Source: a virus
Direction: 5' to 3' (one strand)
DNA length: 48,993 bases
Virus record (IMG/VR): IMGVR_UViG_3300027734_000110
Span: 1-48,993 of that record
How positions within the stretch are numbered: the stretch's first letter is position 1; each line of letters opens with the position of its first letter. The notes below the pieces were generated by a model. The model was not told the origin of the DNA. It did not search any database and worked only from the letters and a program-made list of their open reading frames with translations. Shown piece by piece: positions 1,858 to 46,835 of the stretch. Position numbers and translations under genes: made by a program.

Positions 1858-1863
1858 TTGGGT

Positions 1864-2106: not shown

Positions 2107-2108
2107 GA

Positions 2109-2297
2109 TTAACGACCTCTCTGAGCGGCTAATTTAGCCATACCACGACCCATTGTCTTCATGTTAGCGTTTTTCTTGCCAACAGTATGTTTGATTGGAC
2201 CGTTCATAGTTTTTACGGTTGGGCCTGAATCGCCTAAATTCTTGCCTTTTGTTTTGCCTTTGGACTCAATGCCGCCGGCGCCTTTTTTGAATGTCAT
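2109..2297 (-). CDS. Very basic small protein (62 aa)
   Basis: A 62-residue protein with about a quarter Lys/Arg and many Gly, starting MTFKKGAGGIESKGKTKG and ending MAKLAAQRGR. No hydrophobic core is apparent, so it is probably disordered alone. The KGKTKG string resembles the end of the RGKT(K/R) tag found on four neighbouring proteins. An AGGAG ribosome-binding site lies before the ATG at 2297. Nucleic-acid binding or virion packing is plausible from composition only. Confidence 0.65.
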   Translation of the reverse strand: MTFKKGAGGIESKGKTKGKNLGDSGPTVKTMNGPIKHTVGKKNANMKTMGRGMAKLAAQRGR

Positions 2298-2306
2298 AAT
2301 TTACTC

Positions 2307-3078: not shown

Positions 3079-3081
3079 AAC

Positions 3082-4038
3082 TTACCTTGAATAAGACATA
3101 TTTCTTGGTACAAACCTTAAAGGCGCAGTTTCACGATCTTCGCCCGCGGCCAATTCAAATTGTTGTTCGTAATCTGCTTTTAAACCCATTACTCTTTGTG
3201 GGTCTACATTAGGCAATTTAACGCTTAACATATAAGATAAACCAGCCACAAAACAATTAATAAACCGGAATGGGATATCCTGAATGTTTACACCGTCTCC
3301 GGCATCTTGTAATCTGCGCATACGCCAGTAAACTAAAGTGTAAGGACTGCCACCCGCATCGGGAGTAGGCCATATGTTGACACACGGCAAATTCTGAACA
3401 TATACAGAAGCACCAGCGCTGTGTGTGGCTGCTACGGTACCATTTTGACCGCGCCAACAGTTTAAAAGTTGATTAGTGGATGTATCAATGTTGGTATACC
3501 CAATAGTCTCATTATCAATTTTTACAAAACCAGTAGAGCCTAAATCCGCTACGCTAGTTAAAGTGATGGTAGTAGCCGTTGCTGATACTGGCGGAACAGT
3601 TCCTGTGCTAGCAACTGTAGTAGACGCTTGGCCGTTTGTTTGTGCTGTTTGGCGGTTAAACCATACTTGAATAGGGCGTCCAGTAGTTAGTTTATTAGGA
3701 ATAGTAGAATAAGTAGACTCAGATATACGACTGAGATTAATGTCAGTTTGGTTAGATGCACTTCCATTGCTTGTCCTAGTTACGAGGTCTAAAATATCAA
3801 TAGTATCTGCAGGAACTGGGTATACACCTTGGTTTGTAACTAAAGGAATAGCACACTCTTCAATAGTCCAAAGGTTAAGGCCACGATTAGCCCACTCAAT
3901 CGTCATAAGGTTGATAGAGCGTCTTGCAGTTTTTAAATCATATCCAGACCTTAACTGCGAGCCACAACGCTCAAAAGCCTCTTCTACGAGCTCTGATAGG
4001 TCTAGGTTAAACGAAGTTTGTCCGGATGTAACAGCCAT
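3082..4038 (-). CDS. Second adaptor/tail-tubular-like protein with an inserted beta domain
   Basis: A 318-residue protein. Residues 10-60 (LSELVEEAFERCG, LKTARRSINLM, EWANRGLNLWTIEE), the NIWPTPD strand and the C-terminal VDPQRVMGLKADYEQQFELA helix have the look of phage adaptor or upper-tail proteins. Residues about 131-215 form a distinct Thr/Ser/Ala-rich beta module with FVKIDNETIGYTNI and CWRGQNGTVAATHSAGA. This resembles an IDNE...Y...RG.NGTTAA.H repeat that I recall from several phage structural proteins. It separates QVWFNRQ from LPCVNIWPTPD, which probably belong together. The stop lies 3 bases before the next gene. Confidence 0.7.
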   Translation of the reverse strand: MAVTSGQTSFNLDLSELVEEAFERCGSQLRSGYDLKTARRSINLMTIEWANRGLNLWTIEECAIPLVTNQGVYPVPADTIDILDLVTRTSNGSASNQTDINLSRISESTYSTIPNKLTTGRPIQVWFNRQTAQTNGQASTTVASTGTVPPVSATATTITLTSVADLGSTGFVKIDNETIGYTNIDTSTNQLLNCWRGQNGTVAATHSAGASVYVQNLPCVNIWPTPDAGGSPYTLVYWRMRRLQDAGDGVNIQDIPFRFINCFVAGLSYMLSVKLPNVDPQRVMGLKADYEQQFELAAGEDRETAPLRFVPRNMSYSR

Positions 4039-4235
4039 TATTTATTCGCTTTTAGTATTGATATTTCTTCGCGTAATTTATTTATTTCTGCATCACGTTC
4101 ATCTAATTTACGTATTAGACTAAAGTTTGTATCTGCCCACATTGCCATATCTATAGTACGTTCTTTGTGGTCTTCTAACATCATTTTGTACAACCGCTCA
4201 GATGCTTCTATCTGGCTTTGTATAAAGTCTTTCAT
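4038..4235 (-). CDS. Small coiled-coil protein (65 aa)
   Basis: An almost wholly helical 65-residue protein. The C-terminal half (RKLDERDAEINKLREEISIL) shows heptad spacing typical of a coiled coil. Its stop codon overlaps the start of the adaptor-like gene by 1 base, so the two are likely co-translated. Possible roles are a small assembly factor or minor virion protein; the sequence does not decide between them. Confidence 0.65.
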   Translation of the reverse strand: MKDFIQSQIEASERLYKMMLEDHKERTIDMAMWADTNFSLIRKLDERDAEINKLREEISILKANK

Positions 4236-4604
4236 TTATTTTTTCTTTGCTGTTTTAGCCGATTTAATAAAGTCCGCTTTAGTAGGCGCACCCTTAGATC
4301 CAACTTTACGCATTCTTTCACCAGAGCCAGCCTTAATACGAGCCTGCTTTTTATGAATATTTTCGTACAAACCAACTTTACCACCTTCATCAAAAAAATC
4401 AGCCGCCTTTAATGATCCGGGTTTTGCAAGAAGTTTTTTCACAATAGTAGACGGAGTTCCCGATTTACTAACTGTAACATTATTCCCCATTTTCCCACCT
4501 TTTGCATAAACTTCTACGTCTTGCGGATTGTCTGTACGTTGAATAATTTTTTTACCCGGCATCTTGCTAGGTTTAATATCACCCATTCCACGACTTGCTC
4601 TCAT
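4236..4604 (-). CDS. Basic virion-region protein, AGSGERMRKVGSKGAPT motif (122 aa)
   Basis: A 122-residue basic protein. The C-terminal third contains YENIHKKQARIKAGSGERM, then GSKGAPTKADF and a Lys-rich end. Proteins with this NIH...R..AGSGE.MR..G.KGAPT signature are frequent, unnamed neighbours of structural genes in phages; that is recall, not a search. The N-terminal part is Lys/Gly-rich. The start overlaps the stop of the upstream gene as ATGA at 4601-4604, implying coupling. Confidence 0.7.
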   Translation of the reverse strand: MRASRGMGDIKPSKMPGKKIIQRTDNPQDVEVYAKGGKMGNNVTVSKSGTPSTIVKKLLAKPGSLKAADFFDEGGKVGLYENIHKKQARIKAGSGERMRKVGSKGAPTKADFIKSAKTAKKK

Positions 4605-4948
4605 GCTTTTGTCTTTCCTCTAATGCAGCAACCGTCTGCTCTGGCTGATGCTGATTTAACTTTACCGCCGGCTTTCATATTTTTAGTAATATCACGGTTA
4701 ATTTTTGGCATACCACCGCCGCCACCACCGCCTACGCCACCAACTCTGGTATTTGCTTCTACTTTTTTAAACTCATTACGAGAAGCACGTTCTTCTTTAC
4801 CTTGGTCAATATACTTCTGTAGGCGTTCTGCAAAGTCCTTTTGAATCGCTGGATCCACATTAGGCATACCACGCTTCATGCGTTCTGCAGTTGATTTACC
4901 ATCTCCTGTAGGGCTCATTGGATCAATTGGATTAATTGGATCAGGCAC
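4601..4948 (-). CDS. RADGC-tag protein 2 (115 aa)
   Basis: The open frame extends to 4981, but I place the start at GTG 4948. It overlaps the end of the upstream gene in the string GTGCCTGA, exactly as the GTG start at 2735 overlaps GTGCCTAG. ATG at 4918 is an alternative; neither has a strong ribosome-binding site. The protein has a Pro-rich start, a helical middle (KDFAERLQKYIDQGKEERAS) and a run of eight Gly. It ends in the basic tail with RADGCCIRGKTKA shared with neighbours. No function is known. Confidence 0.6.
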   Translation of the reverse strand: MPDPINPIDPMSPTGDGKSTAERMKRGMPNVDPAIQKDFAERLQKYIDQGKEERASRNEFKKVEANTRVGGVGGGGGGGMPKINRDITKNMKAGGKVKSASARADGCCIRGKTKA

Positions 4949-5234
4949 GGGTTTTTCCACGAATAGCACAGCCGTCAGCACGTTTAGATGCGGAACTTAC
5001 AGAACCGCCTTTTTTATATCCTGCCTGCTCATATGCTTCACCTTCGCGAGCTGAGGCTGGAACCGATTCCCGCATTTTTAAACCCGCTTTAGTTTCATCT
5101 CTGGCTGATTTAGCCATTGTTGGCATAAGCGCTGAGAACGCATCTTTTTCCCCCGCAATGCCTTCTTGGGTTTTTTTGCGGGCAGCGTCTAACTTAGCAG
5201 CTTCTTTTTCGGTAGGCTTTCTGTAGTTAGGCAT
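4941..5234 (-). CDS. RADGC-tag protein 3 (97 aa)
   Basis: A 97-residue protein with a helical, charged N-terminal half (RKPTEKEAAKLDAARKKTQE) and an Ala/Glu/Lys-rich centre. The tail KKGGSVSSASKRADGC followed by AIRGKTRA matches proteins at 2728-3078 and 4601-4948. The last codons overlap the GTG start of the next gene. The conserved cysteine in the tail is the only Cys in the protein, so disulphide or metal contact at the tail is conceivable. Confidence 0.65.
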   Translation of the reverse strand: MPNYRKPTEKEAAKLDAARKKTQEGIAGEKDAFSALMPTMAKSARDETKAGLKMRESVPASAREGEAYEQAGYKKGGSVSSASKRADGCAIRGKTRA

Positions 5235-5235
5235 A

Positions 5236-5712
5236 TTAGCACTTTCCGCCCATTTTCATTTTAACTTCTCTACCCTTGGTTTTGCCTTTAACAGCGCAGC
5301 CATCGGCAGACTTATGCCCAGCAGAAAGACCACCACTAGCCATTTTTTTCATAGGCATACCGCCTTTTTTAAGGCCAGTTAGATCTGTTTTCTTGCCCAT
5401 GTGCTGTTGTTTATCGTGCATACCAACGGCCTTTTTAATAACTTTTTTGTCCATTTTAATGTCAGAATGAGCGGCGCCGCCCTCTTTCATATAGCCCATT
5501 TTATTACGTACGGCTGTAGGTAACTTAGCCAATCCGGGATTTTTTTTCATGTCTACTGGTTTCATAGCTCCACCTTCTTTAAATTTTCTGCCTTTATCGG
5601 CGTTGTTGAAATCTTTACCCACGGATTGTGGGACTCCTACTTTTTTTGCAAATGCAGGGTTATGTGCAATTGCTGCCATAAAATTGTGCTGTTTTTTACT
5701 TGTTGACGGCAT
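5236..5712 (-). CDS. RADGC-tag protein 4, Met/Lys/Gly-rich (158 aa)
   Basis: I choose ATG 5712 (MPSTSKKQHNFMAAIAHNPA) rather than the upstream Met, because it has a GGGAAA-type ribosome-binding site and matches a recurring phage N-terminus with S.KQ..FMAA.AHNP.FAKKVG. The body has repeated KGG/EGG segments (MKEGGAAHSDIKMDKK, LKKGGMPMKKMASGG). It ends SADGCAVKGKTKG plus a short extension with a final Cys. It overlaps the holin-candidate gene by 17 bases. Probably disordered and basic; role unknown. Confidence 0.65.
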   Translation of the reverse strand: MPSTSKKQHNFMAAIAHNPAFAKKVGVPQSVGKDFNNADKGRKFKEGGAMKPVDMKKNPGLAKLPTAVRNKMGYMKEGGAAHSDIKMDKKVIKKAVGMHDKQQHMGKKTDLTGLKKGGMPMKKMASGGLSAGHKSADGCAVKGKTKGREVKMKMGGKC

Positions 5713-5896
5713 CTTTTTTTCCCAACCAACGCTGAACAGTCTTTGTTTCATAAATGCGGATAGCAGTCCAGACTATTGTGAAAATGGCGGCAATAGCGGG
5801 CAACATATCTGCAAGAGTTCCTAGTACGGTTGCAATGGAAGCAAAATCAATAATTTGTTTTGTTGCGTCATCCATGCTCATAAATGGGTCTTTCAT
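5696..5896 (-). CDS. Small membrane protein, holin candidate (66 aa)
   Basis: A 66-residue protein. Residues about 14-46 (IIDFASIATVLGTLADMLPA, then IAAIFTIVWTAIRI) form one long or two short membrane segments with a tight turn. They are followed by a basic C-terminus (KTVQRWLGKK). Size, topology and basic tail fit small phage holins. No endolysin is visible next to it or elsewhere in the window, which weakens the call. It could also be a minor membrane-associated virion or superinfection protein. Confidence 0.5.
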   Translation of the reverse strand: MKDPFMSMDDATKQIIDFASIATVLGTLADMLPAIAAIFTIVWTAIRIYETKTVQRWLGKKDAVNK

Positions 5897-5897
5897 T

Positions 5898-6143
5898 TTA
5901 GCATTTCCAAGCTCTTAATGATTTGTTGATACGGCTATCTGGATCATTTGCCGTCTTTGCTGAAGTAAGTTTTTTTTTCATCCCGGTCATACGGGCACAG
6001 AAAGACTTTTTCCGAGAGCCGCCTTCCGGTTGCGGCGGTTTTAAGTTCATACCCTGTTTCTTCGCTGATGCTCTCCCCTTGGCGTTTAATCCGCCTTCCG
6101 GGTTCTTGCCTTCTTTGCGTGTCCATGCAGGTGTCTTAGCCAT
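5898..6143 (-). CDS. DUF6321-like basic protein (81 aa)
   Basis: The sequence opens MAKTPAWTRKEGKNPEGGLN and continues AKGRASAKKQGMNLKPP, then KKSFCARMTGMKK. The PAWTRKEGKNP.GGLNAKGR signature is one I associate with the small phage family DUF6321, found in marine and freshwater phages next to structural genes. The C-terminus SLRAWKC also fits. No enzymatic motif is visible. The protein is very basic and probably binds nucleic acid or a virion partner. The start touches the stop of the glycosyltransferase gene (1-base overlap). Confidence 0.65.
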   Translation of the reverse strand: MAKTPAWTRKEGKNPEGGLNAKGRASAKKQGMNLKPPQPEGGSRKKSFCARMTGMKKKLTSAKTANDPDSRINKSLRAWKC

Positions 6144-6898
6144 TATGCGGCTTCCTTGTTTGAGTCTACTGGGCGAATCAATGGATATAAAAACTCTTCA
6201 CCAAATGAGCCTTCAAACTCATGGACACCCATATGACCTAACTTAATAGTTGGGTCAATCCATACTTCAAAGCCCATCTCTCTAGCACGGTCACAGAACA
6301 AATAGTCTTCACCAATATACTGACCATCTTTTAATTCAAAGTCAAAGAAACAATATGTTTCATCTCCCTGTTTCTTTTCATCATGGTAAAGCCACTCTGG
6401 GTGAGCTTCGGCTAACTTTTCAAATACTTCACGGCGAATCATCATAAAAGCTGTAGCAACACGTTTGGCTCTTACTAGGCCCATTTTGTCCATAAAAATG
6501 CTGTCATCATCTGTATCTAATGTAGAAAAATAAACTTGACCTTTTTTACGGGCAACTGGGATACCAGCAACAATCCCTTTTACAGGATCTGTATTCCACG
6601 CCATTAAACGGAAAATATCTTCAGCATTAAAGTTGATATCTGAATCAATGAACATTAAATCTGTGCACTCTGACTTTAAAAAATCAGTAGCGATAAGGTT
6701 ACGAACACGGGATACAACAGAACATCCAGAAATATTGCAGATTTGAACGTCAATTCCGTGTCTTGTTGCTTGTAAACAAAACTCAGCTAGCGAAATAGCT
6801 AGCTTTGAAGAAACTTTGTAATCGTAGGAAGGAAGGCCAATCATCACCCTCCGACCTGCTAAATTATATCCAGCTTCTAAGCGTACTTGTTCGGTCAT
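6143..6898 (-). CDS. Glycosyltransferase-like protein (GT-A fold)
   Basis: A 251-residue protein with a GT-A nucleotide-sugar transferase layout: an early VMIGLPSYDYK strand, an RNLIATDFL helix, then LMFIDSDINF with the DxD pair at residues 85 and 87 that would bind metal and nucleotide sugar. A region with GIPVARKK and a C-terminal IGEDYLFCDRAREMGF (acidic acceptor-side residues) follow. Stand-alone phage enzymes of this type may decorate virion proteins or DNA, or modify host envelope sugars; the acceptor cannot be read here. It lies inside the structural operon, which favours a virion or late role. Confidence 0.75.
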   Translation of the reverse strand: MTEQVRLEAGYNLAGRRVMIGLPSYDYKVSSKLAISLAEFCLQATRHGIDVQICNISGCSVVSRVRNLIATDFLKSECTDLMFIDSDINFNAEDIFRLMAWNTDPVKGIVAGIPVARKKGQVYFSTLDTDDDSIFMDKMGLVRAKRVATAFMMIRREVFEKLAEAHPEWLYHDEKKQGDETYCFFDFELKDGQYIGEDYLFCDRAREMGFEVWIDPTIKLGHMGVHEFEGSFGEEFLYPLIRPVDSNKEAA

Positions 6899-26484: not shown

Positions 26485-27447
26485 ATGGCCGCATATTTTT
26501 TAACGGATGATCAATTTATCACATCGTGGAAAGAGATTGGCAGTCCACAAGCATTTGCAAAAAAACATGGCATGGATGTCAGATCCGTATATAACCGGCG
26601 AAGATCAATAGAAAACCGTTTAGATGTTAAATTGCCGACATTGGATGACAAACGTTATTCACCCATGCGTAAGTTAGAACAAGTGATTGGCAACGCAAGA
26701 CGCGGCACAGAGATGGAAAAGGGTAGGGTGGTTGTATTCTCAGATGCCCACTTCTGGCCAGATGACTACACTACCGCATACAAAGCCCTCTTGATGATCA
26801 TTAAAGAGTTCCGCCCTAAAGTCGTGATCGCCAATGGAGATATATTTGACGGTTCCCAGAATAGCCGGCACCCAAGGATAGGCTGGTCTAAGAGCCCTAC
26901 AGTTAAAGAAGAACTGGAGGCCTGCAAAGAGTTTATGGCTGGCATTGAAAAAGTATCTATTGGTGCCGAGTTGGTCTGGACGATGGGTAACCATGATGCC
27001 CGTTTTGAAACTTTCTTGGCTGCCCAAGTCCCCCAGTATGAGGGGATATCAGGGTTTACCCTTAAGGATCACTTCCCTATGTGGAAACCTTGTTGGTCTT
27101 ACTGGGTTAATGAGGATACTTGTATTAAACACCGCTGGAAAGGTGGTTTTGGAGCCGGCCGTGCCAATGCCCTAAACTCCGGTGTAAACATGATTACAGG
27201 CCACACGCACAATCTAGCAGTCCAACCTATCACCGATTACAACGGAACCCGCTATGGCGTCCAAACCGGCACTCTATCGGATCCTAACGGCGAACAATAC
27301 GTACATTACACGGAAGACGGTTGCAAGGACTGGCGCGCCGGATTCGCCCTGCTGTCTTTTGAGCGTGGTAGACTAATGCTTCCAGAGCTAATTCAGGTAT
27401 GCGGCGAGGATGAGTTTGAGTTCCGCGGCTGCATAAACTATGTATGA
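26485..27447 (+). CDS. Metallophosphoesterase with N-terminal HTH-like region
   Basis: ATG 26485 with GGGGA five bases upstream is the preferred start; ATG 26473 is an alternative. The calcineurin-like motifs are clear: SDAHFWPDD (D87, H89), IANGDIFD (D119), MGNHD (N169, H170) and ITGHTHN (H240, H242). These would bind two metals. Residues about 20-47 (SPQAFAKKHGMDVRSVYNRR) read as a helix-turn-helix, giving DNA targeting. Phage enzymes of this type may be SbcD-like nucleases or phosphatases. It is coupled to a SprT-like gene and lies in a rightward island within leftward genes. Confidence 0.75.
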   Translation: MAAYFLTDDQFITSWKEIGSPQAFAKKHGMDVRSVYNRRRSIENRLDVKLPTLDDKRYSPMRKLEQVIGNARRGTEMEKGRVVVFSDAHFWPDDYTTAYKALLMIIKEFRPKVVIANGDIFDGSQNSRHPRIGWSKSPTVKEELEACKEFMAGIEKVSIGAELVWTMGNHDARFETFLAAQVPQYEGISGFTLKDHFPMWKPCWSYWVNEDTCIKHRWKGGFGAGRANALNSGVNMITGHTHNLAVQPITDYNGTRYGVQTGTLSDPNGEQYVHYTEDGCKDWRAGFALLSFERGRLMLPELIQVCGEDEFEFRGCINYV

Positions 27448-27791
27448 AATTAAACACATCTATTTTGCGTAATCTGTACAGTGCAATCTACTGTATGAAG
27501 CCGTTTAGTCGGTGGCCTATGCCGCTGCCGGAGCAAATTAAGTTTGTGGTAGATTCAGACCCAGATACTATGGGCACCTATTTATATGATGATGGCGAAG
27601 ACTATGAGCACATCATTACTATTTCAGATAAAAAATGTGGCCACCTGTCAACAGTGATCCGCGTTTTAATTCATGAATGCGTTCATATGAGCCGCTGGAA
27701 GACCCAAAGATGGTCACATCACGATGCCGAGTTTCGCCGGCGCACCAAGGTTATATCAGACGAACTAGGCTTTGATCCCTTGGAGTTGTAG
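27444..27791 (+). CDS. SprT-like zinc metalloprotease domain protein (115 aa)
   Basis: A 115-residue protein with the zinc motif LIHECVHMSRW (H77, E78, H81) and a further His pair in WSHHDAEFRRR (about H92-H93). The HG.EF-like third-ligand pattern is that of SprT/Spartan-type proteases. The small N-terminal region has a strand and helix before it. SprT-like proteins cut proteins crosslinked to DNA; a phage copy could process DNA-bound host or phage proteins. It overlaps the metallophosphoesterase by 4 bases (ATGA). Confidence 0.7.
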   Translation: MKLNTSILRNLYSAIYCMKPFSRWPMPLPEQIKFVVDSDPDTMGTYLYDDGEDYEHIITISDKKCGHLSTVIRVLIHECVHMSRWKTQRWSHHDAEFRRRTKVISDELGFDPLEL

Positions 27792-35115: not shown

Positions 35116-35147
35116 GGGGTGGTTACCGATTACCACCCCATTTTTTT
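35116..35147 (+). terminator. Intrinsic terminator of rusA
   Basis: GGGGTGGT (35116-35123) and ACCACCCC (35132-35139) form an 8-bp stem with an 8-base loop, then A and seven T. It lies between the convergent rusA and the polyvalent-protein gene and ends transcription from rusA. Confidence 0.85.
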
Positions 35148-38100
35148 ACAAGCCGGCTTCTTTGCGGATCTGGATTACGTCTTCTAGGATTTCATTCTTC
35201 GTTCTTTGCAGTTCTTGGACTTCCTTGCGGCGATCATCTTTAGAGAAATTAGGATCTCTTACTTCGCTAACCCTGCGAATTTCTTTGTTGATTTCTTTGA
35301 GCGCAGACTCAATTCCAGTGACATATTCATAAGCAGCAATCTCTTTCTCATGCTTATTGAAGTATTTATCAGCCTCTGCATCCTTCTCGCGTTCAATTAA
35401 CTTCATAAAAGTCTTGTGCTTAGGCTCAACCTCAGTTTTAAGATCATAGAACAGGGCTTCTGGGCCGCGGCCTACGTCCCTATCCATCAGTCCACCCCAT
35501 AGCGGATTGTCTTTTTGTTCCGCAGTTGGACGCTCACCAGAGAGCATATTAGAACCCCACATGACTACAGCGCCGTTGGTTCCAAAGATACCTCTAACCA
35601 AGTGATCCATCTCAATTGGGTTTAATGCACCACCAACAACTGCGCTAAGAATCTTGCCTAACTCAGAAGTAGATGCGTTGTACTGTTCTGCCGCGTCTAA
35701 ACCTTCCAATCCTTTTGGAGTAATTGCGCCGCCGGTGAAGAAGTTGCGGTTAAGGCCAATCTCTACGGCAGGTTTGATACCGGTAGCGATAGGATTAGGG
35801 CCAAGCAAGGAATCTATTGCAGCCTCAGACAGAGACTTGCGCAGCCTAGTGAAGTCTACTTCGTTCTTGGTGCCTTTTTTGAGAACATAGTTTGTAATCA
35901 ATTCTGGCATTGCTTTAAAGAAGTAGGCTGCAGAAGTATTCATCGGCAACAAGATGTTGTCATCTACGCCAATATGCTTGGTTAAGTTCTTAGGAATAAC
36001 AAAGTTACGGGCTTTCTTCTGGTCATCCATTTTCTCGTAGTCATCGTTACCGCCCATAATCCATGTATAAATCGTTGTCCACATGGTTAACATTGCAGCT
36101 ACCTTGAGCATGGAGCCAAACGCAGCACCGCGGTTCTTGCCTTTTAAACCACCGCCGGCCAGAGCTTCAGCCAGTACGTCTAGCTGCTGGGCATAGGCGT
36201 TCATGAATGATACGGAACGGGTAATCGCAACAACCATCTTGGCGTTACCGTGCTTCTTAAAGTCAATGATGTTATTAGATCTAATCAACGCCAATGTCTC
36301 ATCACCAGTCTCAGCCAGCACGCGTTTGTAGGTTGCTATACGCTGAGCCATATCAGAGGCATCACCAATCTTATCTAAGATATTAGTGAATTGATCTAAC
36401 TTGTTTTGCTCAATCAAACCAATCTGCTGCTTGTACTGTTGCTCTGGTGAGCGGGTATACGATTGGAAGCCACCGATACCGTAAGCTTTAAGGTGACGAA
36501 CGATTGGGTCTTCTGAATTAAGAGCGTTTAAGAATGACTTAAAAGTATCTGCATAAAGAATGGCAGAGTTCTTAGCACCTAAGCCGGAAACCATAGCAGC
36601 GGTTGGAGCATCCATGAACAGCTGGCGTAATTGGAACTGTGGCCAAGTAGTAATACCACGGCGCAGCAGGTTAGCCATGACTGCAAATATCTCAACCGCC
36701 GGCATATTGATGTTTTCCATACCAACAACTGCCTCAGCAATCAATGGATCTGGGATGTTAACAATCACTCTTTTGCCGTTAACTACGATATTTAAACGCA
36801 CACCGTTGTCATCTCTACCTTCTTCTCTGTAAAGTTTTAGTTTGTCTTTCTTTTTACCTTCGGTGTAACGTTCTGCGTACCGCGAGGCAATCATATTAGC
36901 GGCATGATTACGCATAGAGTTGCGGCCAAGAACGGCTGTGTTATGCAGCATATTGTCTAGGATGTCATCAATCTCACCTAGGTTCTCTTGATACTTTTGA
37001 ATAGCTTCATTAAATTCATCAAGATCAATCTTGCCATCAATGTAGTCTCTGGCTGCCTTATTGACAGCTGCGTTGCGTTTAAAGACTTTTTCTTTAGCTA
37101 CATTGGTTAGACTTTTAGTTGATCCACGGACAGGGGCGCTATGGACGTCATCCATCTCATCTTGGACACGCTGCCATGGAACGTAGTCTTCAATCTCACG
37201 TAAAGACTTAGCACGCTTTTTGCTGATAAGGCCAGAGAACTCCATGTTGTCAAGGTTATTGCTATTAACGGCCTGCCAGTTTTCCATCATATTTTTAAGC
37301 TCTGGATTGTCATCTTCCAGCGCGGAATAGATGTCAATGGACTCATCACTTAACTTTACCTTGCTTCTGGCAACGGCGATGTTATAGAAATCGTTCTTGG
37401 CTTTTTCTACTTCATCCAAGGCGTCATAATACGCATCGGTGCCAAACTCTAATTTCTCAGCCTTTTCTTTAGCTTTCTCTACGACACCTTCTTGCTTTTG
37501 GAAAGCATTCAAAATACTTCTGGAGCGTTTGGCCTCAAAGTAATCTTGAATCATGTTATTGGCTTCTTGGCCGCCAACGCGCTCAATCAAGTCATGCTTA
37601 GCCAACATCACATTAGCAAGGGATTCTTTAGCATCTTCAGCGCGGAACATCTGTGATTTAGTATCAAACATCAACTTACCACGCATAATGGCCTGAGACA
37701 TAATCTCACCGGAATGCAGAGCGTTAGTCAAAGCTACAGTAGCAATGGCCTTTTCTTGGCCGTCTCTGACCTTGCCGTTAAATTTCTTAACCTCGGCAAC
37801 TTCTAGTCCGCGGCCATACCAGACACCCTTAATACGTGCGTAAGTGATTGCGCGGTCTAGTTTGCTGGTCATCTTATTAACGGCCAGCATTGGGCTTTCT
37901 TTTACCGCTTTAGCTGCTTCTCTAGCCGCTCCGTAAGATCCGAGCAGCATATCCTTGACAGACTTAGAAGTCTTAAGTTTAAAGTCTTCACGGCCATCAG
38001 CTTCACGCTGGGCTAGATACTCTTGCCTTCTGTCATATTCTTCTTCAGCGTCTTCAGAATCGGGGCGTACAGGTTCATTCCTTCCTTGTCCTGTTCTTGC

Positions 38101-41100
38101 TGATAATTGCGATACCTTGTCTCCGCGGCCGCTATCATCTCCTCTAGCTGATTTGGCCCCTTTGTTGATATCCTCAAGAGACTTTGCAATATTTGTTGTT
38201 GTTGATCTTTCATATGCTTCCTTCATTGCGGTAAATGTTGATTCGTGACGAGCCAAAATATCTAAAATTGCATCGCGGTAATAATCCAATAGTCCTTGGT
38301 CAGCAAGGTACTGCTCAACTTTAATCATCTGGCCATTGTGTCCAACACCGTGATCCATGCTGCCTGTATGAGCAATTTCGTGGATCATTGTGTTTAAAAA
38401 GTTTTGGCGTACACCAAATAAAGATTTAGCACCCCAACCATAAAACGGATTTAAAAACACTCCTTTATAAGGTAGTTTAATATGTACGCCGCCGTATCCT
38501 TTGTCTATGGATACTCCACCAAAGAATAAGTTTTCTGGACTAAGGGTGTCATACCCATAAAATCCCGGAGCTTTAGCTAATTCTTCTTTCATTTCAACTA
38601 TTAAAGTGCCAAGCTCAGCAAAAAACTTTTCTGGATCTCCGTATTGTTTGCCAATTTCAACATAATCCACATTGGTATTGTTGTGAAAAATAGGCATCTT
38701 GGGGTCTTGAGTCATTTCAATCATGAACTCATCGCGAGTAGGCGCTGCTTTTTCCGCTTGGAATGTGCTAGCTTTCTTTTTTTCCTCTTCTTTTACTTTG
38801 TCATAAATGACCCTGCCTTGAACATCAGAAACAACATTGTCTTTAATGGTTATTTCTTTGGGCATTTCTGGTACTTTTGTTTGTTGACCAGCACCACGTT
38901 GATCAAATACTTTTTTAAGTTTTTTACTTACCTCAGCAACGTCTTCTCCAACCTCAATACGAGGCATAGAAACAATGCCCTCAAAACTTTCTTTTAGGTC
39001 TTTCGCTTCTTCTCCACGAGCAACACGAGAAAGATACGCACCCAACGAATCAATGTCTTCTTTAATTCTTGGTTTAAAAGATTCACGACTATTTTCAAAT
39101 GGGTAATCTTCGCTTTTGGCGTTGACGCTTGGTTTAACGTTAACGATGATGTCATAAGGAATTTTTTCATTTTGGCTCATCATAAAATGGCTTGAGTATC
39201 TACTTGGACCATTAAATTGGTAAACACCGCTAGAAAGAATTTGGTGCTTAGGGTTATCTTTTCTTTGCACTCCAAAATAAACGTCAGCGTGGCCCCAGTC
39301 AAAATTTACTTTTGTTTTAAATGGAGTAGATTCTTCATCAAAATTCATTCCAATTGGTAAAACTGTTGTTTTTGTATCACCATACGCATGGTAATTTAAA
39401 GTAACTTCAGCTGGTCCTATCAAAGGATGCTGTAATGTATCTATATGTTTTGGATCAGTATAAAAATAAATTTCTCTTACTTCACCTTTTTCAGTTGTAT
39501 AGTTTTTTGGAATTGTTACTTCAACAGTAGTTCCATGTTCACTTTTTGGCGCTGGTGATTTAATAATATTAAAATTACTGTTAGAAATATCTTCGCCGGT
39601 TGCATCAACTTTAATTCTTACACCATCTCTTACAGTATCCAGTTTGAGGTTTTCTGTTGAAACCATAAAACCAATTTTTGCTAAACCAAAACCACCGCTT
39701 GATTCTCCGGGCGGTAAATCTGTTTTATCTGATCCGGCAACAGTAAAAAATGCTTTTTTAACTGTTTCAAGACTCATACCTCTGGCATCATCTGTAATTT
39801 TTATGGTTCTTTTATCGGTATCTATATCAATTTTAATATGACCAACTTTGTATAAAGACGGAGATTTGTAATTTGAAACTGCACCCTTAACTGCGTCAAA
39901 AGAATTTTGTAACAATTCTTTAACGCTGGTTTCAACTAAATTTGCGCCGTACATATTTCGGCCCATTAAAGTTAATGTATTACCTTTGTTAATATCAAAC
40001 TCACCAGCTTCTGTGCCAAACTTTTCTGTTTCTTCTTTGGATGCTGATGAAATCAACCCTTCATCTGGACGAGACACAAACTCAACATTTTTCTTTTGAA
40101 CTCTTTGGTATGCTTTAGGATTTGTGGCGCTAATAGGTCTAAACTTAATATAGTCGCCTTCTAATCCAACCACCGTTCCGGGCGTGTTTCCAACACGGAC
40201 ATCATCGCCAACCATAAAGTCATTTAATTTTTTCTCTGCAAAATCTTCAACAACTTTATTTACATATGAACCGGGCTTACCGTTATCCTCATCTTTAACT
40301 TTTGGTGCGGACACTTCAATTGCTTTTGCGCCGGGTTCCCTAATGATAACTTTTTCACTTACTTTGCTTGGCTCAAATCCAAACTTGCTATAAAAACTAG
40401 ACAACTGCACGGCAGTCATTCCTTTTTCTTCAAGCTGTGCTGGCTCTCCAAAAAGTGTATAACCATGCTTATCTGCTACTTCCATTAAATCTGCAACAGC
40501 TTTAGTGGCTTTGCCTTTATTACGCTGCGCTGGATCTACACCAAGAAAATGCCAAACAATCTGGTCTTCATTTCCATATCCAATTTGTGGCGGCCTATTA
40601 GGGTATTTTGGATCAGCAAACAATACCTCTCCTGTACCAAAAGAAAGTCTTACGCCATCTTTTTCAATTGTTCTATATCTTGTTTTGCCTTTGCTTTCAT
40701 ATGTGCGTGGATTATCAAAGCTAAGCACTTTGTAACCCTTGGCACCCATGTCTACAAACAATGGGAAAGTTAACTTGTCGCCTTCATCGTCTAAAACAAA
40801 GTTTTTTTCTGTAGGGCCAACTAACTTTTGAAGTTGTTTAACGGTATATGGTTTAACAACGCCTTCAGGATAATTAGGGAATACCGATAACATCCGTTCC
40901 GCATCCATAGAAGTAATCTTGCGCTTGGCAATATCACTCTTTAGCTGGCTTTCGGTAGACTTAATAGTGGTATCTATTACCGCACTAAAACGTGCTTCTT
41001 CTTCACGAGCCAACTCTCTATCAAGCCTTTCGCGAGCAGCACCCAGCTCTTTATCAGATGGTTTTTCTGCTTCGGCCTCAACTTCACGCTCAAATTCAGC

Positions 41101-44100
41101 TGGGTTCTTTAAGTATCTATCAACCCGTCTTTTTTGGATCATGCTTAGTTTGACATCTTTAATGTCCAACTTCTGGAGCTTTGCATACTCCATAGCATTT
41201 TCCATGTCATTTTCATCAACCATAGACTTAAATGCTTCTTTGGCTCCAGAGCTTGGTCCACCATAAGTTGGGGCGGCTTTAGGAGTTACGGCACTAACAA
41301 TCTTAGACTGAAGTTCTTTTAAACGCTCTACGTTATTTTTAACCTTAAACTTGCCATCGCCGGGAATGCTAATAGTGACATAGCTGTCTGTAGCAGTGCG
41401 ATCCCATTCTTTATCAGTCTGTATAGTAGCGCGTTTAATAGCCTGATCAAATTGATTTTTAACCGCGGTCTTGATTTTGGCATAGTCAACTTTAGACGCG
41501 GCCTTGTCCATAGACTCTTCAATAGTCTTAGAAGTAACTGGCTCTTCTTTCTTGCCTTCAATGTGGACTTCTTTTTCTGTTGGCTTTTCTTTGGCCGCCT
41601 TAGTATCTGCAATAGCTTTTTCAATGGCGGCAATGTAATCTTTAACATTGCTAGTCATCTCTTTGTACATTAGAGACTTGGCCTGTGCACCAGTAATATT
41701 ACCAGATTTTTGTGCGTCTGCCAACAACATAGCCGCGTACATGGCGGTGCCTTTTTTAGGCTCTTTAGGTTTTGGAGCTTCTTTGGTAGCTTCTTTTTGT
41801 TTGGCCTGACGTTCTTTATTAATTTCAACTTTAGATTTTGGTTTCTCTTCTTCCGCCAAACCAATGGCTCTCTTAGCTGCAGGAGTTAGATGTGCAGATA
41901 GTTTATTTTTTACATCTTCTTTTTCTTGTACAGTAACTCCTGAAATGTTGCCATATTTTAAAATTTCTTTTTCTATTTCTTGAGCTTTTTTAAGTTCTGC
42001 TGGTGTCAAGTCTAGCTTAACAAGATATCTTTGATCTTTTATTCTTTGACCAGATGCATACCAATCGTTGCCATCTTTAGATGAAACAATATTAATTGGA
42101 ATATTTTTTTCTATTCTGTTTTTAATTAATCCGGCCGCTTCTTTATTTACAGGTTCAGCAGGTTTTGTTTCAGCTGTTGTAGGTTTGGGTGCCGGCAAAT
42201 TATAGCCAAGGAATGACCTTACCTTATCCATGTCTGGTGAATCAGTAAACCGAACAAAAGAATCTCCACCTCTAATTCCGGCAGCTTCTGCTTCTTGAGA
42301 AACGTATACTTTGTTGTTCTTTATATTAAGTAAGCCAGCCTTTTCAAATTTCTTAAGCACTGGTTTAACTTCATCGTTATATTGAAGGCCATTACCACTT
42401 CCAACAACTTGTCCAACAAAGGCTATTTCTTCAGGAGTAAACTCTTGAGGAATAATTTTTCTTGGTGGTTTAATTTCTTCTGGCGCCTTTGGCGGGGCAA
42501 CAGTCGTGGTTGTTTCGGCAACAGGCGTTGATGGAGCAGCTTCTTTTTTAACTTCTTCATTGGATTGATATCCCAATGGCTCGTAATGATAAGCTAAAAG
42601 ATCTGCATCAGATTTACCTTTTGCAAAATCTTTATTTGTTTTGATAACATGACCTTGGTCATCAAGAATATCAACTGACCCATCTTTCATTCTCATTATT
42701 TGTACTGGGAATGTTCCGGAATCTTCAGTGATTACGTTATAAGTTGCAGAAGATTGAATTGAAGATTTTTCTTTACGATCTTCTGTTGGTGCTTTGGGCG
42801 CGGCAGCTTCTGTAGGCGGAGTTACGCCACTGGCAACCAGCTCGTTTATCTCTTTAGTAATCTCGCCTTGACGTCTATTAAGATCACCAAACTCGGCTGG
42901 AGTTGCAGTCTTATACTTCTCGTCAATTGTTTTAAACTCGGCCTCTAAAGCATCAAGCCGGTCAATCTTTTCTTTGTCTTGCTCTTCAATGTCTTGGTCT
43001 TCAAGCGCTTTAAACTTGCTTAAATCTTGTGGGCCGGTCGGCGGTGTACCTGCAGGAGGAGCAGGCGGTGTAGGAGGAGCGCCTTCTACAGTAACATTCT
43101 TGCCTTGCTGTAAGACTGTTTGATCTTTTTTGAGGAAATCTGGATTGTAGTTGCGGATCTCTTTAAGGATCTTGTTAGATGCCATACCAGCACCACCCAT
43201 AACCGCGCCTTGGCCTACGGTAACTAATGCGGTATCTACAGCACCTTGGAAGAACTGTTCTAGACTGGCTTGTGGATTTAATCCAAAGCCCAAGTCGGTT
43301 AGGTATTGAGACAGGTAAGTTAATTCTTCACCGGCCAGATCTTTCATGACAAAGTTGGCTGCAGTTTTGGCTAACTCTTTTGCAGAAACGCCGGCGCCAA
43401 TGTCTTTAATACCTTTAAACAATGTAGGCAAGCCAATCCGCTCACCCAATACTTCGGCAGCACCAAACAGAGCAGAACGTGCCGTACTTTGGGCTACGTT
43501 CAATCCTTCATTACGGCTGTCGTCATAAGTTTGCAGAAACGACTGGCCAAACATTGTGGTGTACGCGGCTGGCAGTCCGGCTGCAAGACCGGTATAAATA
43601 GTAGGAACGTTAGCTAATACAGACTCGCCAATGTTTTTGGCAATCTTTAATCCGTAGTTATCTTCAAAAGTCTTTTCTACAGCGCCCTGTTCTTTGGCCA
43701 GCTGCTTACTGACGCCTTTAACGTCATCTTGATGAAGGCCGGTCATATCCGCAATCATGCGGGCACCACCTAGCCATGTTTGTTGCAATGCAGTAGATGC
43801 ACCATATGCAGCTGCTTTAGCGGTGCGCAAAGCCTTCTCTCCAGTACCCATCTCTGGAGTAAGACCAAATGTAGCCGCGGCTCTTTCCGCTTCGGTGGGC
43901 ATCTTACTAACATCAAACTTAGGTACTTCAGATAGATTTGGTGTGCCAACTTCACTAATCATCCGATTGCCCATAGGAGGAGCATCTGCTGGAAGTGTGG
44001 TGCCGGCCAAAATGCTTGGCTTAGAATCAACAACAGGTGGCGGAATAACCCATTGGTTGTTTATTAAAAACGCAGATTGACCTGCGTCATTTTTAGCAAC

Positions 44101-44175
44101 CTGCGTAGGGGCTACCCATTGGTTATCAACTAAAAATACTGTTTCCCCAGTAGCTGGATTAACTGCTCTTTGCAT
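35146..44175 (-). CDS. Giant polyvalent internal virion protein (GNAT-like, GHKL ATPase, HExxH peptidase-like)
   Basis: A 3009-residue protein. N-terminal FLxxNQWV repeats (1-45) precede an Ala/Gly-rich hydrophobic helical part (about 90-330), a Pro-rich linker, and long Lys/Glu-rich regions. A GNAT-like domain follows (VDPAQRNKGKATKAVADL near 1215), then an SH3-like strand set (VGDDVRVGNTPGTVVG). Next is a GHKL ATPase: VKELLQNSFDA (E1420, N1424), KITDDARGMS (D1463, G1466) and GGFGLAKIGF (1494). After it comes a metallopeptidase-like motif MIHEIAHTGSMDHG (H1932, E1933, H1936). A large helical C-terminal part resembles LPD38-type phage polyvalent regions, ending in a coiled coil. It is probably carried in the virion and injected. 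Confidence 0.75.
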   Translation of the reverse strand: MQRAVNPATGETVFLVDNQWVAPTQVAKNDAGQSAFLINNQWVIPPPVVDSKPSILAGTTLPADAPPMGNRMISEVGTPNLSEVPKFDVSKMPTEAERAAATFGLTPEMGTGEKALRTAKAAAYGASTALQQTWLGGARMIADMTGLHQDDVKGVSKQLAKEQGAVEKTFEDNYGLKIAKNIGESVLANVPTIYTGLAAGLPAAYTTMFGQSFLQTYDDSRNEGLNVAQSTARSALFGAAEVLGERIGLPTLFKGIKDIGAGVSAKELAKTAANFVMKDLAGEELTYLSQYLTDLGFGLNPQASLEQFFQGAVDTALVTVGQGAVMGGAGMASNKILKEIRNYNPDFLKKDQTVLQQGKNVTVEGAPPTPPAPPAGTPPTGPQDLSKFKALEDQDIEEQDKEKIDRLDALEAEFKTIDEKYKTATPAEFGDLNRRQGEITKEINELVASGVTPPTEAAAPKAPTEDRKEKSSIQSSATYNVITEDSGTFPVQIMRMKDGSVDILDDQGHVIKTNKDFAKGKSDADLLAYHYEPLGYQSNEEVKKEAAPSTPVAETTTTVAPPKAPEEIKPPRKIIPQEFTPEEIAFVGQVVGSGNGLQYNDEVKPVLKKFEKAGLLNIKNNKVYVSQEAEAAGIRGGDSFVRFTDSPDMDKVRSFLGYNLPAPKPTTAETKPAEPVNKEAAGLIKNRIEKNIPINIVSSKDGNDWYASGQRIKDQRYLVKLDLTPAELKKAQEIEKEILKYGNISGVTVQEKEDVKNKLSAHLTPAAKRAIGLAEEEKPKSKVEINKERQAKQKEATKEAPKPKEPKKGTAMYAAMLLADAQKSGNITGAQAKSLMYKEMTSNVKDYIAAIEKAIADTKAAKEKPTEKEVHIEGKKEEPVTSKTIEESMDKAASKVDYAKIKTAVKNQFDQAIKRATIQTDKEWDRTATDSYVTISIPGDGKFKVKNNVERLKELQSKIVSAVTPKAAPTYGGPSSGAKEAFKSMVDENDMENAMEYAKLQKLDIKDVKLSMIQKRRVDRYLKNPAEFEREVEAEAEKPSDKELGAARERLDRELAREEEARFSAVIDTTIKSTESQLKSDIAKRKITSMDAERMLSVFPNYPEGVVKPYTVKQLQKLVGPTEKNFVLDDEGDKLTFPLFVDMGAKGYKVLSFDNPRTYESKGKTRYRTIEKDGVRLSFGTGEVLFADPKYPNRPPQIGYGNEDQIVWHFLGVDPAQRNKGKATKAVADLMEVADKHGYTLFGEPAQLEEKGMTAVQLSSFYSKFGFEPSKVSEKVIIREPGAKAIEVSAPKVKDEDNGKPGSYVNKVVEDFAEKKLNDFMVGDDVRVGNTPGTVVGLEGDYIKFRPISATNPKAYQRVQKKNVEFVSRPDEGLISSASKEETEKFGTEAGEFDINKGNTLTLMGRNMYGANLVETSVKELLQNSFDAVKGAVSNYKSPSLYKVGHIKIDIDTDKRTIKITDDARGMSLETVKKAFFTVAGSDKTDLPPGESSGGFGLAKIGFMVSTENLKLDTVRDGVRIKVDATGEDISNSNFNIIKSPAPKSEHGTTVEVTIPKNYTTEKGEVREIYFYTDPKHIDTLQHPLIGPAEVTLNYHAYGDTKTTVLPIGMNFDEESTPFKTKVNFDWGHADVYFGVQRKDNPKHQILSSGVYQFNGPSRYSSHFMMSQNEKIPYDIIVNVKPSVNAKSEDYPFENSRESFKPRIKEDIDSLGAYLSRVARGEEAKDLKESFEGIVSMPRIEVGEDVAEVSKKLKKVFDQRGAGQQTKVPEMPKEITIKDNVVSDVQGRVIYDKVKEEEKKKASTFQAEKAAPTRDEFMIEMTQDPKMPIFHNNTNVDYVEIGKQYGDPEKFFAELGTLIVEMKEELAKAPGFYGYDTLSPENLFFGGVSIDKGYGGVHIKLPYKGVFLNPFYGWGAKSLFGVRQNFLNTMIHEIAHTGSMDHGVGHNGQMIKVEQYLADQGLLDYYRDAILDILARHESTFTAMKEAYERSTTTNIAKSLEDINKGAKSARGDDSGRGDKVSQLSARTGQGRNEPVRPDSEDAEEEYDRRQEYLAQREADGREDFKLKTSKSVKDMLLGSYGAAREAAKAVKESPMLAVNKMTSKLDRAITYARIKGVWYGRGLEVAEVKKFNGKVRDGQEKAIATVALTNALHSGEIMSQAIMRGKLMFDTKSQMFRAEDAKESLANVMLAKHDLIERVGGQEANNMIQDYFEAKRSRSILNAFQKQEGVVEKAKEKAEKLEFGTDAYYDALDEVEKAKNDFYNIAVARSKVKLSDESIDIYSALEDDNPELKNMMENWQAVNSNNLDNMEFSGLISKKRAKSLREIEDYVPWQRVQDEMDDVHSAPVRGSTKSLTNVAKEKVFKRNAAVNKAARDYIDGKIDLDEFNEAIQKYQENLGEIDDILDNMLHNTAVLGRNSMRNHAANMIASRYAERYTEGKKKDKLKLYREEGRDDNGVRLNIVVNGKRVIVNIPDPLIAEAVVGMENINMPAVEIFAVMANLLRRGITTWPQFQLRQLFMDAPTAAMVSGLGAKNSAILYADTFKSFLNALNSEDPIVRHLKAYGIGGFQSYTRSPEQQYKQQIGLIEQNKLDQFTNILDKIGDASDMAQRIATYKRVLAETGDETLALIRSNNIIDFKKHGNAKMVVAITRSVSFMNAYAQQLDVLAEALAGGGLKGKNRGAAFGSMLKVAAMLTMWTTIYTWIMGGNDDYEKMDDQKKARNFVIPKNLTKHIGVDDNILLPMNTSAAYFFKAMPELITNYVLKKGTKNEVDFTRLRKSLSEAAIDSLLGPNPIATGIKPAVEIGLNRNFFTGGAITPKGLEGLDAAEQYNASTSELGKILSAVVGGALNPIEMDHLVRGIFGTNGAVVMWGSNMLSGERPTAEQKDNPLWGGLMDRDVGRGPEALFYDLKTEVEPKHKTFMKLIEREKDAEADKYFNKHEKEIAAYEYVTGIESALKEINKEIRRVSEVRDPNFSKDDRRKEVQELQRTKNEILEDVIQIRKEAGL

Positions 44176-44178: not shown

Positions 44179-46380
44179 TTATCCTTGTGGAACTAGTTGA
44201 AATCCTTTTGGAAGTGCAGGTATATTGCTGCCGGGAGGGGGAGTAGTTACCCCAAGGTTCTTATTAAGCTGATTTGGGTCAAATTGAGTCATCTTTAACA
44301 ATGGCCTTAGTTCTGGAGATAGGTTCTTCATTGCAAAATCTGCAGCGTCAATTTCCATCTGTCCGGGATTATTTTTATATTTGTTATATAAAGGTTTACC
44401 GGGTTTAGCGTTATCTTTAATGTGCTGCAAGCTCTGAGTCAGTAAAGTATTATAACGTTCTTGAGCCATTCCAGTAAGCTGCATTTCTTTGTAAGTGCTA
44501 GTATTTTCGCGGCTAGCGCTAGCAGCGGCTAACTGGGCATTTTTTATATCCAGATTAGCTTGCATTTTTAGCAATTCGCCTGCTTTTTCAAGTCTTTCTT
44601 TATTGTCTGAGGCAATACCTTTGGAATCCATTTGAGCTAATTCGCGTTTCAAACCAAGAATTGCATTATTTTCTTTTTCAAATGGTCCTAATGCAGCAAT
44701 ACCAGAGCGTCCTACGTTAGATGCTAACTGACTAAATTCTCCGCCCGGTTGACCGGCAGGAGCATTCATCATATTTAATCCAAAACGAGTTAAAGCAGAT
44801 GGAATGATCATCCCTTTTTGTTCTGCAATGCTTTGTTTCAATTCTTCTTTATCAATCGCTCTTTGTTTAGCAGCTTGATTTTCCATGGCCAGTAATGCAA
44901 CGCCGGCTTTACCAGCATCTAATTTACCGTCTTTACCGGTATTTTGTTTTATTATGTCTGCCATGGTTGGGAGAGCTTTTTCTTCAGTAACCTCATCGCC
45001 TTTGGCAAAGGAGGCAATACCGCCTTCAGCCATCTGGGTCATATCACCTGTTGGCGCGGCAGCTAAGCCGGCTTGTTGAGGAATGTCCTGTGGCATTGGA
45101 AGGCCGGGCTGCAGTGGGCTGGAAGATTGTTGCATTAAACCGGCTACTTGTGGAGCAGCTTGTGGGTTGCTACGGTTATACGCACGCTCCTGCATTAGTC
45201 CTTGAGCATACATATCGTCTATAGGAGTAGATACTGGGCTCTGTGGAACTCTAGCCAATTGGTCATCGGTATACATCTTCATTGGTACTGCACCGCCGGG
45301 TGCCATTTTAATGACCCCGCCATCCGCTTTAGTGGCCGCGTTATACATTGCAGCCGCGCCCAATCCTGCGGTTCCAAGACCGGCCAATTGAGATATTTGG
45401 CTAGGAGCTGCTTGATACATCTGGGTAGAAGACTGTTGCATAGGCAGACCGCGCAACATAGAGTTAAGCATACCCAACTGCAAGAATGGATACTGCTGAG
45501 CTGTAGCGTAGTTTTGAACAGCTTGATTAATGATGTTCTGTTGATTCTGTTGTTGCAACGCACCCTGTTGTGTCTGGGTTCCAATAATTCCTTGTCTTGC
45601 TGCCAGTTCTTGACCACCAAGGCCGGCCAACTGATTTGCATTTTGCATAGCAGCTTGGTTGGCTTGCAATCCAAAGCCTTGGTTTTGATTGTATTGGTTT
45701 TGCGCTGCACCAAATGCTTGATTATAACCTTGGCCAATTACTTGGTTCATGGCCGTATTTTTATTACGTTGATTCTCAGCGGACATCAATGCTTCACGAT
45801 TGCCACCAAAAGCACCGGCACGGGTAGCTCCAGCTCGTTGTTGCATACCAGTAATATCATATTGCCGGCCAATTTCTTGCAGTGCTGGGTTCAAAGCATT
45901 TTGAATATACGGATTCATATATCCACCAACTTGACTTTGGAAGTTTTGTGGATTTGCGTTTGCCCCCATTCCTAAAGCATTACCAACACCAAAACCAGTA
46001 ATTCCTTGTGCCACTCCATAAGAGCCGGGAACTTGAAGATTGGCTGATGAAGATTGCGCTTGTTGTTGTAGTGGACTAAAGCCAGCTATATAATCCTGTG
46101 GGTTGGCGCTATAAGGCGTATATTGATTAAATCCTGTCATATCAGGCGTATAAACTTGTGCCTGTGCAGCATTTAACATATTCATTACGTATGGCTGTGC
46201 ATACTCAGGAATGTTAGTATTTTGAACTGTGGTCTGGGTAGGACCAGCTGGAGCTGGAGCAGGTGCTGATCCACCGCCGCCACCGCCACCATAGATACGG
46301 CCACCGCCTACTTTTTTAACGGTAACAGAGTCCCCTAAAGGCTCACCAAGTGCATATAGTTGACGTTTTGAATAACTCAT
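44179..46380 (-). CDS. Large Gln/Ala-rich internal virion (ejection-like) protein (733 aa)
   Basis: After a Gly-rich start, residues about 40-330 are Gln/Asn/Ala/Gly-rich helices (QQQAQSSSANLQVPGSYGVA, MQQRAGATRAGAFGGNREAL, YNQNQGFGLQANQAAMQNA). Gly-Asp-Ala-rich segments with ADGGVIKMAPGG and MAEGGIASFAKGD come next. The C-terminal third is helical, with MQANLDIKNAQLAAASASRE. This layout is that of internal/ejection proteins of aquatic podoviruses, which form a conduit for DNA during infection. It ends 3 bases before the giant gene, so the two are coexpressed. Confidence 0.65.
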   Translation of the reverse strand: MSYSKRQLYALGEPLGDSVTVKKVGGGRIYGGGGGGGSAPAPAPAGPTQTTVQNTNIPEYAQPYVMNMLNAAQAQVYTPDMTGFNQYTPYSANPQDYIAGFSPLQQQAQSSSANLQVPGSYGVAQGITGFGVGNALGMGANANPQNFQSQVGGYMNPYIQNALNPALQEIGRQYDITGMQQRAGATRAGAFGGNREALMSAENQRNKNTAMNQVIGQGYNQAFGAAQNQYNQNQGFGLQANQAAMQNANQLAGLGGQELAARQGIIGTQTQQGALQQQNQQNIINQAVQNYATAQQYPFLQLGMLNSMLRGLPMQQSSTQMYQAAPSQISQLAGLGTAGLGAAAMYNAATKADGGVIKMAPGGAVPMKMYTDDQLARVPQSPVSTPIDDMYAQGLMQERAYNRSNPQAAPQVAGLMQQSSSPLQPGLPMPQDIPQQAGLAAAPTGDMTQMAEGGIASFAKGDEVTEEKALPTMADIIKQNTGKDGKLDAGKAGVALLAMENQAAKQRAIDKEELKQSIAEQKGMIIPSALTRFGLNMMNAPAGQPGGEFSQLASNVGRSGIAALGPFEKENNAILGLKRELAQMDSKGIASDNKERLEKAGELLKMQANLDIKNAQLAAASASRENTSTYKEMQLTGMAQERYNTLLTQSLQHIKDNAKPGKPLYNKYKNNPGQMEIDAADFAMKNLSPELRPLLKMTQFDPNQLNKNLGVTTPPPGSNIPALPKGFQLVPQG

Positions 46381-46388: not shown

Positions 46389-46835
46389 TTACAACATTTT
46401 TGTAAATACTTTGTCTGTCATTTTGTAACCCAAATACTCAAATAACTTTGAATTGTCTAAGTGAACTTTAGTGTGCATCACGATTCTTTGAACTCCACGT
46501 TCTTTTAATACTTTTTCAGCGTATTGGAATAACTTAATTCCTACCCTACCTTTGCGAAACTCCTTAGTCACAAAGTACAAATCTTCTATTGCCGTTATAC
46601 AAGACTTGTAGTGAAGATGAGGGGTTACCATAAAAATAATGTAACCAATTAACTGTTCATCATTCCTGCAAGTAATGCACCGCAGCATTCCTGCCTGTGC
46701 CATCCTTTTATAAGCCTCATAATCGGGCTCATAAGGAAACTCTTTTGTTACGCATAACTCTTCATAATGCTCTGGAAAGAGTCTTTCAAACTCATCTACA
46801 AATTTAAATCCATCAACGTCTTCATAGATAATCAT
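46389..46835 (-). CDS. GNAT family N-acetyltransferase (148 aa)
   Basis: The compact GNAT fold is visible: an N-terminal helix and strand, GYIIFMVTPHLHYKSCITAI, EDLYFVTKEFRKGRVGIKLF with the acetyl-CoA loop RKGRVGIK, then AEKVLKERGVQRIVMHTKVH and a final strand LFEYLGYK. The Q/R-x-x-G-x-G/A motif is met as RKGRVG. The substrate is unknown. Phage GNATs beside internal virion genes may acetylate virion or host proteins. It overlaps the next upstream gene by 4 bases. Confidence 0.85.
   Translation of the reverse strand: MIIYEDVDGFKFVDEFERLFPEHYEELCVTKEFPYEPDYEAYKRMAQAGMLRCITCRNDEQLIGYIIFMVTPHLHYKSCITAIEDLYFVTKEFRKGRVGIKLFQYAEKVLKERGVQRIVMHTKVHLDNSKLFEYLGYKMTDKVFTKML

Follow-up and report, generated by a model that had tools for sequence, protein, structure and literature searches.

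Phage polyvalent proteins are recognized by the combination of several effector-like domains with an LPD domain, and metallopeptidases are among the modules they carry. It has been reported that the third zinc ligand of the polyvalent MPTases is a glutamate on a later helix and that these peptidases form 12 clades unrelated to known zincins (Iyer et al. 2017, PMC5512222). The main text of that study contains no GHKL, histidine-kinase or gyrase-type ATPase and no WLM protease, and a full-text literature search of openly licensed papers did not find a GHKL-metallopeptidase polyvalent protein. Among eukaryotic proteases, Wss1 and SPRTN are described as removing DNA-bound proteins. The giant phage protein analyzed here, P0001, belongs to the known polyvalent kind; what is new is the cassette it carries, in which a GHKL ATPase is followed by a zincin.

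The window, i.e., the whole stretch of DNA that was analyzed, is a virus record (G000) of 48,993 bases. The 3009-residue ORF reported in a preliminary description of this DNA was recovered on the minus strand, with an ATG start codon at position 44175 preceded by an AGGA-like ribosome-binding site (Table 1). It lies in a minus-strand cluster encoding TerL, portal, head protein, and tail or virion proteins, and the gene directly upstream shows weak similarity to DNA-ejection genes. In three close relatives (L002-L004), the genes flanking the giant gene on either side keep the same order. P0001 combines an LPD38 domain (4e-19) with a GHKL ATPase (3e-10), a zincin and a GNAT-like module, and its C-terminal similarity extends to a DarB-like antirestriction protein. 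Its earlier assignment to the polyvalent-type phage proteins is thus supported by the LPD38 domain, the late-gene position and the adjoining ejection-like gene. This context also fits a packaged internal protein, to which it lends plausibility rather than proof. Two stand-alone ORFs of the window were also noted: a putative acetyltransferase (46389-46835, minus strand; PHROG 2e-12) between two virion-type genes, and a small protein (27444-27791, plus strand) with an HECVH...SHH motif that by eye resembles SprT.

Table 1. Features of P0001 and its upstream neighbor in the window
Feature	Coordinates	Strand	Basis
P0001, giant polyvalent-type protein, 3009 aa	35146..44175	-	ORF analysis
N-terminal conserved region, residues 45-465	42781..44043	-	82% identity with L002
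GNAT-like module, residues 1123-1293	40297..40809	-	acetyl-CoA loop QRNKGKA at 1217
GHKL ATPase and transducer-like region, residues 1395-1715	39031..39993	-	Pfam core 1415-1547
ATPase-zincin linker	38719..39030	-	conserved spacing in 72 proteins
WLM/YgjP-like zincin, residues 1820-2003	38167..38718	-	AlphaFold pLDDT 96
HExxHx5H motif HEIAHTGSMDH, residues 1932-1942	38350..38382	-	zinc ligands and catalytic Glu invariant
C-terminal scaffold, residues 2044-3009	35149..38046	-	93-95% identity in relatives with different cargo
LPD38 domain, residues 2711-2892	35500..36045	-	Pfam E 4e-19
Upstream neighbor gene, DNA-ejection-like	44179..46380	-	weak match to PHROG 4287, 2e-6

The GHKL ATPase named in the preliminary description was confirmed by a match of residues 1415-1547 to Pfam HATPase_c_3 (E 3.4e-10, better than the curated cut-off), by conserved Bergerat motifs and by the predicted fold. 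In an active-site alignment of 105 sequences (73 distinct by core), the residues of both the ATPase and the zincin sites are invariant except at G1495 and T1549; the Bergerat motifs (E/N, DxxxG, GGxG, GT) are kept in 105/105 sequences apart from single G1495S and T1549S changes. E1420, N1424, G1466, G1494, G1497 and G1548 do not vary in any aligned relative, so four of the motif residues listed earlier stand, whereas the fifth, D1463, does not: this position is N in most relatives, and the G1 aspartate is D1462. Because the catalytic residues hold in relatives down to about 22-30% identity, these features of P0001 are not due to chance. An AlphaFold model of residues 1395-2045 (18 sequences) reached a pLDDT of 76 and, in Foldseek searches, matched HtpG/Hsp90, GyrB 43K and MutL (E 1e-10 to 1e-13); the structure prediction proposed as a check therefore recovered a GHKL core. 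A viral-structure entry of 1404 residues (A0A516L4L2) aligns over most of the same query with a TM-score of 0.66. On the model, the ATPase half is predicted to be a GHKL domain plus transducer of the Hsp90/GyrB/MutL type. Hsp90 proper was rejected, as P0001 has no match to the Pfam Hsp90 family and the hhalign alignment with Escherichia coli HtpG (probability 95%, E 3e-8) spans only about 88 residues. R1697, in an invariant position within YPFxxxR, was considered as a possible counterpart of the Hsp90 catalytic arginine.

The second half of the cassette is the zincin, for which the motif HEIAHTGSMDH had been noted at residue 1932. H1932, E1933, H1936 and H1942 are all invariant, and the HExxHx5H zinc site is found in 62/62 aligned zincins, the third ligand being a histidine five residues past HExxH. 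Among these 62 homologues, Pfam assigned WLM to 34 (best 1.5e-6), YgjP-like to 27 and SprT-like to 8, while the window's own copy reaches no Pfam model, WLM included. The domain alone was modeled with high confidence (62 sequences; pLDDT 96, pTM 0.92), which bears out the peptidase part of the proposed structural check; Wss1 was its nearest solved fold, by a weak Foldseek match (E 0.3, probability about 0.7), and Wss1p was also the best PDB profile match (0.003). Its nearest kin thus appear to be the Wss1/WLM, YgjP and SprT-type zincins, a relationship that lends some indirect backing to the earlier suggestion of DNA-bound targets. The common MPTase-PolyVal (PF18818) could be ruled out: it was matched by 1/62 homologues at E 0.062, and the histidine ligand and the separateness of the 12 polyvalent clades set the cassette zincin apart.

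The linkage between ATPase and peptidase, to which the preliminary description had drawn attention, proved to be very tight. In a GHKL-only search of viral contigs, 23/23 loci encoded, within the ORF and downstream of GHKL, a zincin of the same type. A zincin-only search returned 80 loci, and GHKL was absent only from L077 and L083, both of which start at a contig end immediately ahead of the zincin. Scaffold-only queries (LPD38-type A9 and LPD39-type A10) were also used, and the 91 proteins whose N-terminal part was complete were retained; 36 have both domains, 55 neither and none only one, in counts made with HMMs built from cassette members, which very diverged lone domains could escape. 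Fisher's test for pairing gave 3e-26, a value that overstates independence as the proteins are related and some contigs near-identical. At least 72 distinct proteins contain the pair, and the spacing from the GHKL end to HExxH is 196-298 residues in 72 proteins, mostly 211-214. A search of genome contigs detected the pair on two MAG contigs only (L028 and L029); in L029 it is split across two overlapping ORFs, perhaps by a frameshift. A third candidate, L030, was discarded as an unrelated HD-GHKL protein. The L028 polyvalent protein (3-6242, on a Deltaproteobacteria MAG contig) additionally contains two stretches recognized by eye, one ParB-like and one, at the C-terminus, resembling peptide deformylase. 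Chance adjacency is ruled out by the lack of single-domain giants and by the correlated divergence described below. On sequence evidence, GHKL and zincin form an obligate pair.

Further analysis indicated that this pair moves between proteins. Across a dereplicated set of 61 full proteins, GHKL identity between pairs correlates with zincin identity (rho 0.86; 0/500 permutations), but neither correlates with the identity of the C-terminal scaffold (0.04 for GHKL and 0.05 for zincin). Part of this correlation reflects physical linkage, because neighboring domains are more often transferred in the same recombination event than domains lying far apart, and the perfect presence/absence pattern is the stronger argument. 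L009 and L008 share 83%/93% identity in the cassette and 26% in the scaffold. Among 16 representative giants, LPD39 was found in 9 and LPD38 in 6. The pair is thus exchanged as a unit among scaffolds of the LPD38 and LPD39 types, and it is optional, being present in 36/91 complete scaffold-collected proteins. In LPD39-type relatives (e.g., L193-L269), an HEVVHAAT zincin beside the scaffold is nearly constant, and a second site, upstream of the scaffold, is occupied either by the GHKL-WLM cassette or, in many cassette-free proteins, by a different zincin with a HEILHHMERMLP-like motif.

Close relatives of P0001 show the same modularity over short distances. The C-terminal 966 residues of L002-L004 are 93-95% identical to those of P0001, and the N-terminal 420 residues are also common to L002 and L004, whereas the middle differs. 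In L002 it contains a distant GHKL and zincin (33% and 27% identity; 32% and 22% in the pairwise comparison with the window) and no GNAT match, on a scaffold that is 95% identical; between close relatives, the cassette therefore diverges far faster than the scaffold. In L003 (8768-17665) and L004 (9830-19390), GNAT is kept on the same scaffold and the GHKL-zincin pair is replaced by other domains, including a YkuD-type L,D-transpeptidase-like domain (SHGC motif), a HELTH zincin and a GNHRI motif that is ParB-like by eye; L004 also carries ART-PolyVal. GNAT, found there without the pair, is thus a separate module. The acetyl-CoA loop placed near residue 1215 could be located at 1217 (QRNKGKA), followed by an LYxxxGF-like YSKFGFE at 1262, and a three-sequence profile matches GNAT structures at 5e-4; on the other hand, the Pfam signal at 1202-1269 is below the cut-off in P0001 itself (0.0039), compared with 3.5e-5 in one relative. 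The GC content of the P0001 middle (residues 466-2010) is 34-40% versus 45-47% at the ends, which is consistent with exchange, though weak by itself.

As the ATPase and the protease always occur together, at near-fixed spacing, and are exchanged jointly, they most likely constitute one ATP-gated protease machine. We give a probability of roughly 0.5 to the reading that P0001 is a polyvalent protein whose cassette acts as such a protease, delivered with the phage DNA and cleaving host proteins that hinder it. The changeable middle of P0001 houses the cassette, a GHKL-transducer followed by a WLM/Wss1-like zinc protease. On binding ATP, the GHKL-transducer may close and clamp a client protein, or DNA carrying the client, which would then be presented to the zincin. 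P0001 probably enters the cell alongside the phage DNA, and the cassette would cleave those host proteins that stand in the way of the entering genome. DNA-bound host proteins are the leading candidate substrate because Wss1 and SPRTN act on proteins of this kind. ATP coupling, packaging, injection and the substrate are the elements that we infer. The bolder picture of a new kind of energy-dependent protease that phages exchange as a mobile weapon cassette, i.e., a virion-carried and injected Hsp90-fold ATPase joined to a Wss1-like protease that clears incoming DNA or dismantles defense complexes, is tentative and falls short of even odds.

The main rival is self-processing, in which the zincin would cut P0001 between cargo and scaffold, with GHKL serving as a built-in chaperone or switch that times the cut; this cleavage could take place ahead of packaging, inside the head or once the protein has entered the cell. 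Polyvalent MPTases have been proposed to process themselves, P1 DdrB being a precedent (Iyer et al. 2017, PMC5512222), and 31/34 LPD38 proteins that lack the cassette have a different HExxH zincin, mostly just before the scaffold. Since such zincins in the same position lack an ATPase partner, processing itself needs no ATPase. That other zincin is missing from 4/6 cassette proteins on LPD38 scaffolds, where the cassette zincin tends to fill the slot; on LPD39 scaffolds, however, 28/30 cassette proteins also have an additional HExxH peptidase next to the scaffold, and overall a further one coexists with the cassette in 30/36 proteins, usually in that place. Self-processing also fits L080, L081, L085, L086, L095 and L097, in which the ORF stops about 100 aa past the zincin, with a separate ORF starting directly behind it; the downstream ORFs of L080 and L095, the two tested, match C-terminal ends of giant phage proteins. 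The coexisting peptidase, the optional nature of the cassette and its fast divergence between near-identical phages (22-32% identity versus 95% for the scaffold) speak for an effector, with processing the less likely reading. Both roles could also be combined in one cassette.

Several features of these split loci were recorded as well. The cassette ORF is 1590-1747 aa long where the N-terminal part is present and ends in a conserved DISCG/YSCG-like tail, with the next ORF within a few bases. This separate ORF is about 965 aa in L080, L081, L085 and L086, a scaffold-like length where complete, and the matches of the L080 and L095 downstream ORFs include the DarB-like family. In L080 (2026-6795), a sigma-70 region 1.1-like domain (1e-6) lies upstream of GHKL in the phage giant protein.

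An assembly or unfolding helper is an unlikely explanation. GHKL would then be a chaperone-like clamp keeping the giant protein or the DNA ejectable, with the zincin as an accessory and no host target. The Hsp90-like fold and the late position adjoining an ejection-like gene are in line with such a role, and a role in virion assembly has been proposed, according to a jumbo-phage review, for a MoxR-vWA chaperone pair to which a metallopeptidase is fused; yet both domains are missing from more than half of the complete relatives on the same scaffolds, and every catalytic residue of the protease is invariant. Least probable of all is an rIIA-like protector countering host exclusion from the membrane, with the zincin as the variable C-terminal domain that accompanies GHKL in literature descriptions of rIIA: many rIIA proteins were among the Foldseek matches to viral models, and some members gave weak rIIA PHROG matches or weak tblastn matches to rIIA ATPase regions, but hhalign with T4 rIIA gave a probability of 1.4% (E 0.037) versus 95% for HtpG, and rIIA proteins are products of stand-alone genes, about 700-800 aa long, rather than giants of the virion type.

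The cassettes of the window and four other members were also compared by tblastn with 50,697 phage records, which yielded only GHKL/rIIA fragments, no two-domain match and no cultured phage carrying the pair, and the window's cassette had no match in plasmids. PADLOC returned no match and PHROGs no useful match for whole P0001; the only PHROGs match of the cassette, in all members, was phrog_6203, an unannotated GHKL family. If the preferred reading of an ATP-gated protease effector is true, ATP-gated proteolysis would join the functions that phages may deliver with their DNA. The cassette is a compact expressible unit of 620 residues with clear active-site mutants.

Compared with known systems, P0001 resembles the LPD38/LPD39 polyvalent proteins (Iyer et al. 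2017, PMC5512222) in being giant, multidomain, late and LPD38-scaffolded and in its GNAT-like and zincin modules and swappable cargo (ART-PolyVal in P0004), and differs from those of that main text by its obligate pair of GHKL and WLM-type zincin. It shares Bergerat ATP-binding motifs and a GHKL plus transducer-like fold with Hsp90/HtpG, GyrB and MutL, whereas the downstream part of the cassette is a protease. Like the WLM/Wss1, YgjP and SprT zincins, the cassette zincin has HExxHx5H in a conserved context; unlike them, it has extra conserved N- and C-terminal helices and forms part of a giant phage protein, in fusion with a GHKL ATPase. T4 rIIA is likewise a phage GHKL ATPase with a variable C-terminal part, but it is encoded by a stand-alone gene, lacks a WLM zincin and has very weak sequence similarity to P0001. 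To our knowledge, the energy-dependent proteases described so far consist of a zinc or serine protease working with an AAA+ unfoldase, and an obligate combination of a GHKL/Hsp90-type ATPase and a zincin would differ from them in design.
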